Assembly (NCBI GenBank): GCA_900316335.1 | Contig: ONCN01000023.1 | Span: forward strand, 1-39,231 | DNA: 39,231 nucleotides | Direction: 5' to 3' | DNA from: an uncultured Eubacteriales bacterium | Lineage (GTDB): Bacteria; Bacillota; Clostridia; Oscillospirales; Oscillospiraceae | Shown: piece by piece, positions 1 to 14,747 of the stretch | Layout of the letters: each line of letters starts with the position of its first letter | How positions within the stretch are numbered: the first letter of the stretch is position 1 | Notes under the pieces: model-generated | The model's input: only the letters and a program-made list of their open reading frames with translations | The model's database searches: none | Told to the model about the DNA's origin: nothing | Program-made: the position numbers and the translations under genes

Positions 1-178
1 TGGATCCAAGGAGGGGGAAGAAATTCGAAATCTTCCCCCTCCTTGGCGTGTCTTTGGTTACTTTCTGCACGAGCAGAAAGTGACGCCCCCGGCAGGGTGC
101 GCAGGTTGCAGAGTTAGGAGCATTACCATTGGGTGGCGGAAGGCCAATACAACCACAGACCAATCCCAAAACCCAGGT
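1..178 (+). repeat. Structured intergenic repeat A, copy 1
   Basis: The first ~178 bases recur, inverted, at about 14562-14747 with roughly 80 percent identity by eye. The copy opens with a 15-bp perfect stem (6-20 with 32-46) of the type CCAAGGAGGGGGAAG, followed by a second hairpin (60-68 with 73-81, loop ACGA). In the other copy the second stem is kept but its tip bases differ on both arms. No open frame here looks like a real gene. It is probably a dispersed non-coding repeat family; the element may extend left of the window. Confidence 0.8.
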
Positions 179-540
179 AGCGCACCGAATGGCGCTTCGC
201 GACGGGTCGATGAGCGACGCGTAGCTAGTCCCTTAGGAGTCATCGACCCCTACGGGATAGGTACGTTCCGTAGTGACGCATGACTCCCAGGGGACTAGCT
301 GCGCGTCGCACATGCGCCAGCACGTATGCGCCTGCATAACCTCCGAGCGTTCCAAAACCCGAAACCGCCCACAAGGGCGCTTCGCGACGGGCTGATGTGG
401 TCATCAGCCCCTACGGACTCTGAGGATCGTGGCGCTGCGCGACGGGCCGATGTGCGGTGCGAAGCTGGTCCCTTGGGAGTCATTCTTCGTGACGCTTCGA
501 GTTCGGCCTCTACGGGGCAGGACTACGGCGGGGGCAGCGG
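179..540. repeat. Nested direct and inverted repeats
   Basis: This gene-free stretch is built from repeated modules. A 22-base module beginning GGCGCT and ending in a GATG occurs at 191-212, 376-397 and 431-452. Each is followed by a partner able to pair with its end: 241-249, 402-410 and about 503-508. A separate 30-base module occurs at 214-243, inverted at 280-309, and direct again at 454-483. The stem sequences differ between copies but stay complementary. Small frames here look spurious. The function is unknown. Confidence 0.75.
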
Positions 541-550
541 AAAAATTTGG

Positions 551-576
551 ATTGTCAAGCTTTTAGCCTTGACAAT
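551..576. promoter_or_regulatory. Inverted repeat overlapping the -35 box
   Basis: ATTGTCAAG at 551-559 and CTTGACAAT at 568-576 form a perfect 9-bp inverted repeat with an 8-base spacer. Its right arm contains the -35 hexamer of the ylxM-ffh promoter, so it could be an operator. It could also be the end of an upstream terminator-like hairpin, or a chance product of the -35 sequence. Confidence 0.45.
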
Positions 577-597
577 TGGCGCTGGTTCGTGTATAAT
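569..597 (+). promoter_or_regulatory. Sigma-A promoter for ylxM-ffh
   Basis: TTGACA (569-574) and TATAAT (592-597) are both perfect consensus hexamers separated by exactly 17 bases. Transcription should start near 604, giving a leader of about 65 nt before ylxM. Confidence 0.9.
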
Positions 598-14498: not shown

Positions 14499-14561
14499 CA
14501 GACTGTCAAAGAACGTCGGACGCAGCATATCATGGCGCTTCGCGTCGCACATGCGCGATTG

Positions 14562-14747
14562 CAGGCATTTCCAGGTTTTTTAGGATGGTCGGAGGTTGTA
14601 TCTGCCCTCCGCCACCCAATGGTAACACTCCTAATCCTGGTACCTGCGTACCCTGCCGGGGGCCTTACTTTCTGTGCGCACAGAAAGTAAGCAAAGATGC
14701 GCCAAGGAGGGGGAAGATTTCGAATTTCTTCCCCCTCCTTGGATCCA
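14562..14747 (-). repeat. Structured intergenic repeat A, copy 2
   Basis: The reverse complement of this segment matches window bases 1 to about 178, including the 15-bp CCAAGGAGG-type hairpin. It also matches the ACTTTCTG hairpin, the GGCAGGGT box and the block ACCATTGGGTGGCGGA. The two copies lie in opposite orientation about 14.5 kb apart. Confidence 0.85.

Follow-up and report, generated by a model that had tools for sequence, protein, structure and literature searches.

The closest described systems are the GTAG REPs and REPtrons of group 2-3 TnpAREP (RAYT) transposases, such as SMAG/REPSm of Stenotrophomonas and PU/BIME of E. coli. TnpAREP/RAYT binds and cleaves the hairpin of a single-stranded REP, acting on one strand only, and the degree to which the GTAG and the hairpin are needed varies among systems (PMC8266576). 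GTAG REP families are divided into subfamilies that carry 'alternative complementary stem residues' (PMC3733652), and coevolution of REPs with RAYTs has been described (PMC2817692). In the cited literature, these systems come mainly from Proteobacteria and Cyanobacteria, with some from deeper phyla, and the GTAG survey does not use the word 'Firmicutes' in its main text. The repeats described here share with them a short palindrome immediately preceded by GTAG, a high copy number in both orientations, clusters, inverted dimers, subfamilies with complementary stems, and an association with RAYT genes (here in congeners). They differ in their host, which, judged from ylxM-ffh, appears to be of clostridial type, in the presence of nested loops of 28-48 nt, and in having a CGCGNAGCG mini-hairpin on the 3' side of the main one. 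The GGGYYGATG/TGGCCGCTG stem family has been matched to none of the 24 published GTAG families, whose consensus sequences stayed outside the comparison. IS200/IS605 single-strand transposons likewise have subterminal hairpins and an enzyme family with HUH/Y1 chemistry. The genome has one IS200-like TnpA (C148), but this is a separate gene around which the repeats do not form paired ends, and it was rejected as a partner.

The locus lies near the start of the window, meaning the whole 39,231-nt stretch of DNA that was analysed. It is very probably a BIME-like cluster of four GTAG-tagged REPs, that is, short non-autonomous mobile repeats whose hairpin would be recognised and spread by a RAYT. 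Three units are on the minus strand and one is inverted, on the plus strand. Read on the minus strand, the plan of a unit is GTAG, a 9-bp hairpin (GGGTCGATG-loop-CATCGACCC and variants), GT, and CGCGNAGCG. The features are as follows.

125..193, plus strand: composite flank module (ACCATTGGGTGGCGGA...), which recurs in the genome, usually with REP units after it
194..257, minus strand: REP unit a, long loop (R1 covariance model match, 53.3 bits); CTAC on the plus strand at 250-253 (= GTAG), arms 241-249 / 204-212 of stem type GGGTCGATG, 28-nt loop at 213-240, GT-CGCGAAGCG flank
213..240, with a direct copy at 453-480 and an inverted copy at 283-310: nested loop module AGCGACGCGTAGCTAGTCCCTTAGGAGT of about 28-30 nt, which holds a GCGNAGC 7-mer
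266..329, plus strand: REP unit b, the inverted partner (R1 match, 23.8 bits); GTAG at 270-273, arms TGACGCATG at 274-282 / CATGCGCCA at 311-319 with one mismatch, 28-nt loop at 283-310
379..418, minus strand: REP unit c, short loop (R1 match, 65.4 bits); CTAC at 411-414, arms 402-410 / 389-397 of stem type GGGCTGATG, 4-nt loop at 398-401, then GT-CGCGAAGCG
434..517, minus strand: REP unit d, extra-long 48-nt loop and decayed stem (R1 match, 32.3 bits); GGGCCGATG at 444-452 / GTTCGGCCT at 501-509, CTAC at 510-513
569..597, plus strand: consensus promoter TTGACA-N17-TATAAT, upstream of ylxM-ffh and outside the repeats

A covariance model built on the short unit matched units a to d and nothing else in the window. 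The preliminary description had recognised three modules with GGCGCT heads (starting at 191, 376 and 431), each with a stem partner, and its strings and coordinates were correct: GGGTCGATG at 204-212 with CATCGACCC at 241-249, GGGCTGATG at 389-397 with CATCAGCCC at 402-410, and GGGCCGA at 444-450 with TCGGCC at 503-508. Those three modules are real, but the inverted unit b, which belongs to the subfamily GTAG-TGGCGCATG, had been overlooked, as had the GTAG that stands 5' to each stem in the cluster. The module of about 30 nt was likewise found as described, twice direct (~213-242 and ~453-482) and once inverted (~281-310). Its copies fall within a direct repeat of 85% identity over 54 nt (D1) and an inverted repeat with 46-nt arms (I1, 210-255 / 268-313, 80% complementary). 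The loop of short units is only 4 nt (ACCA/ACCT), the other units carrying the nested loop of 28-48 nt. On the minus strand, unit c reads GTCC-GTAG-GGGCTGATG-ACCA-CATCAGCCC-GT-CGCGAAGCG, with CC directly before the GTAG. When folded as DNA, it forms the 9-bp hairpin plus a 3-bp mini-hairpin with a GAA loop (z -3.75), and the surrounding 362-nt stretch has a fold z of -6.55, beating 100 of 100 shuffles by a margin well outside chance; the 9-bp hairpin is absent from the minimum-energy DNA fold of the long-loop units.

Downstream, the cluster ends about 50 nt before the consensus promoter, and the genes that follow the promoter were identified as those for YlxM and Ffh. At the start of ylxM there is a perfect 29-nt tandem duplication (GGGCCGTGAAGGATGATCAGCTTGAAATG, 636-664 and 665-693), which may be genuine or an artefact of the assembly. 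As for the composite flank module, copies of ACCATTGGGTGG had REPs within 450 nt downstream in 9 of 10 cases at the loci examined. A second composite flank, in the opposite orientation, lies at 14500-14745 of the window and comprises a GGAGGGGGAAGA hairpin, an AGAAAGT hairpin and a GGGTGGCGGA module; it retains a GCGCTTCGCGTCGCACATGCGC remnant and has no full REP hairpin. Two more repeated hairpins adjoin the REP cluster, at 1-46 (CCAAGGAGGGGGAAGA...) and at 57-84 (ACTTTCTGC...GCAGAAAGT), the latter type occurring 18 times in the loci examined, often close to REPs.

The genome carries at least 113 copies of the REP unit, on both strands and also in clusters and dimers, as counted by covariance model matches; a nucleotide search that used this stretch of the window as query gave 104 matches. 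Copies were read from individual repeat-bearing loci, and across copies of the same unit the loop measured 4, 24, 27, 28, 47 or 48 nt. GTAG stands directly 5' of the palindrome, in keeping with the definition of GTAG-type REPs, in which an unpaired GTAG or close variant precedes a palindrome of 6-13 bp, and in the loci of this genome the tetramer preceding perfect hairpins was GTAG 62 times, against 0.9 expected; as the loci were picked for holding the repeat, this count reflects the anatomy of the unit rather than a genome-wide frequency. Among contigs chosen for repeat content, 24 of 36 copies lay no more than 600 nt from a contig end (5.4 expected). Twenty copies fell inside long ORFs, although the ORF calls were rough and these frames may be spurious or open-ended. 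Between gene pairs of the same direction, and with the same rough ORF calls, 14 copies were oriented with the genes and 9 against them, indicating no clear preference.

Stem pairing is maintained by complementary changes. All nine positions were paired in 41 of 46 short-loop copies and in 10 of 14 copies with a 28-nt loop, both sets having been picked by flanking sequence and spacing only; an earlier copy set selected for pairing, and the shuffle test built on it, are excluded from these claims. Six paired stem types were present (GGGTCGATG, TGGCCGCTG, GGGCTGATG, GGGCCGATG, GGGCCGCTG and TGGCCGATG), to which a sister group adds TGGCGCATG. Across 27 distinct copies, 96.7% of cells were paired, compared with 83.1% when partners were shuffled, and changes on both sides occurred in 29 cells, compared with 8.9 in shuffles; sliding the stem partners abolished the signal. 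Congeneric copies displayed further stem types (TGGCCCGTG, TGGCCTGTG, TGGCCGTTG and GGGCGGATG) and gave 99.5% paired cells, with 47 both-side cells against 12.4, in an alignment (A2) that had been fitted to the model. The claim that the stems change in sequence while pairing is kept, for which many copies and a covariation test had been proposed as the check, is thus borne out across the genome, except that the pairing of unit d is imperfect and that a few copies in the genome combine arms of two stem types, such as GGGTCGATG/CAGCGGCCA, with pairing broken in some cells. The shuffles ignore relatedness among copies, and many copies have their stem type in common by descent, so the independent events are far fewer than the cells. 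The stem differences in the window are mostly subfamily types common to many copies, rather than compensatory events that arose independently at this locus.

Since complementary-stem subfamilies of REPs have already been published, the window repeats belong to a known kind and are largely explained by it. The association with RAYT genes was found in congeners. Six congeneric genomes encode RAYTs flanked by REPs of the window type, inverted around the gene; in the DNA examined, the REPs were on both sides in G018, G006, G012, G019 and G021, and on one side in G014. The flanking hairpins were GTAG-TGGCCGATG, GTAG-GGGCCGATG, GTAG-TGGCCGCGCA and GTAG-TGGCCGCTG, and a 26-nt REP (GTAGTGGCCGCTGACCACAGCGGCCA) beside the G014 gene is identical to copies in the genome of the window. 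The encoded proteins have an invariant MPNHxH and DY motif, and their best family is NF047646, with 54-79 bits, just below the NCBIfam cut-off of 80 bits. In phylogenetic reconstruction, RAYTs with window-type REPs formed one group (94/87), separate both from the RAYTs that have GGGCGAGCA/GGACAAGCA/GGGCGGCC hairpins and from those whose hairpins have long loops, so that stem type tracks RAYT clade. In the neighbourhood of the G014 gene (L092, ~1650-1890), half-units are reiterated, with TGACCATTGTAGTGGCCGC present up to three times, which suggests a possible route by which nested loops originate.

The genome of the window, which is a fragmented assembly, has two RAYT-like genes of its own (C121 and C145), both flanked by other palindromes, and no RAYT of the matching clade, or flanked by the REP type of the window cluster, was found in it. 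The C121 gene has neighbours that, as read from their translations, resemble serC and serA, and the inverted hairpins on either side of it are GTAG-GGGCGAGCA, which is another REP type. The C145 gene (locus L086) lies between direct copies of 60 nt or more, at 1-60 and 953-1012, which begin GCAG-AACAGTCC-GGT-GGACTGTT, in contrast to the usual inverted REP pair. No RAYT was detected in the similarly fragmented assembly of G013, which has 32 model matches. Given fragmented assemblies and REPs at contig ends, loss of RAYT genes into assembly gaps is plausible, if unproven.

A RAYT transposase has probably spread the repeats through the genome by copying them. A RAYT, as an HUH/Y1 single-strand transposase, would recognise the GTAG and hairpin on single-stranded DNA, cut nearby, and aid the copying or insertion of the unit. 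Spread would then be limited to units able to fold, while the stem sequence drifts into subfamilies. The simplest account of the conserved pairing is that only folding units would be mobilised, because such transposases recognise a single-stranded hairpin. Insertion or duplication of units within units could give rise to the nested loops and to the head-to-tail and inverted runs.

An alternative is that pairing is kept without any selection on folding, by a mutation bias in which template switching in quasi-palindromes copies one arm onto the other. One-sided intermediates are almost absent, as this would predict, and the existence of units that are hybrids of two subfamilies shows that arms can be exchanged. 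On both grounds, arm-to-arm copying may contribute, adding to RAYT-driven spread rather than replacing it. As the whole explanation it is unlikely, for it does not say why GTAG is invariant, how the units reached at least 113 sites, or why stem type goes with RAYT clade.

The preliminary description had left open whether the selected fold was RNA or DNA, or a recombining fold-back element. Folded mobile DNA is supported by the GTAG hairpins that flank congeneric RAYTs, but RNA lacks support as the principal explanation. It is very improbable that the hairpins were selected in transcripts, as a terminator, stability element or sRNA, even though covariation is strong and REPs are often transcribed and able to act as RNA hairpins (PMC3733652). 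A one-sided G-U pair was seen in a single cell, against the 29 both-side cells, and loop length is highly variable (4 to 48 nt). The Rfam search returned nothing at gathering score, only sub-threshold chance matches to eukaryotic miRNA models; orientation relative to genes shows no clear preference, and the cluster lies upstream of the promoter. Nor would a structured RNA explain the GTAG and the RAYT-flank association. The repeat is best described as a mobile ssDNA-hairpin repeat, not a demonstrated RNA.

A classical MITE or fold-back element with terminal inverted repeats, moved by a double-strand (DDE) transposase, might be read into the long inverted arms at 210-255 / 268-313, but is the least probable of these alternatives, since the unit is asymmetric, being tagged with GTAG at a single end, no target-site duplication was seen on non-systematic inspection, and the REP-flanked congeneric genes encode HUH/Y1 rather than DDE transposases. 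A protein-coding reading, for which frames were checked by ORF listing, is countered by the loops of 4, 24, 27, 28, 47 or 48 nt within one REP unit.

A possibly new detail is the GCGNAGC motif, which occurs both in the 3' flank and inside the nested module. A GNA loop closed by at least two G-C pairs forms an extraordinarily stable DNA mini-hairpin, of which CGCGAAGCG is a used example (PMC4686876). Directly 3' of the REP hairpin, the N of CGCGNAGCG was A in 46, C in 17 and G in 2 of 65 copies, with neighbouring positions nearly invariant; in 52 copies of the nested module, the N of GCGNAGC was C in 23, T in 14, A in 13 and G in 2. The 7-mer also follows some REPs of the congeners G013, G004 and G018. 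The exact d(GCGNAGC) sequence with a variable N is thus present in both places, but it is known as a chemical structure, and a role in REPs is our own inference; no published description of it in REPs was met, in a literature that was not searched specifically for it. A tentative extension, which we regard as possible but doubtful, is a compound REP, in which the GTAG hairpin and the conserved GNA-triloop mini-hairpin, the latter repeated in the nested module, would form a two-hairpin ssDNA signature read by the transposase or replication machinery, with REP loops offering further modules a place to land. That the N of GCGNAGC is free points toward selection on the shape of single-stranded DNA, not RNA.

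Taken together, these repeats reveal an abundant and diversified REP/RAYT system in one genus of bacteria that carry ylxM-ffh, probably gut Clostridia. Because several RAYT clades of the genus go with hairpin types of their own, it provides a good natural data set for the study of RAYT-REP coevolution.
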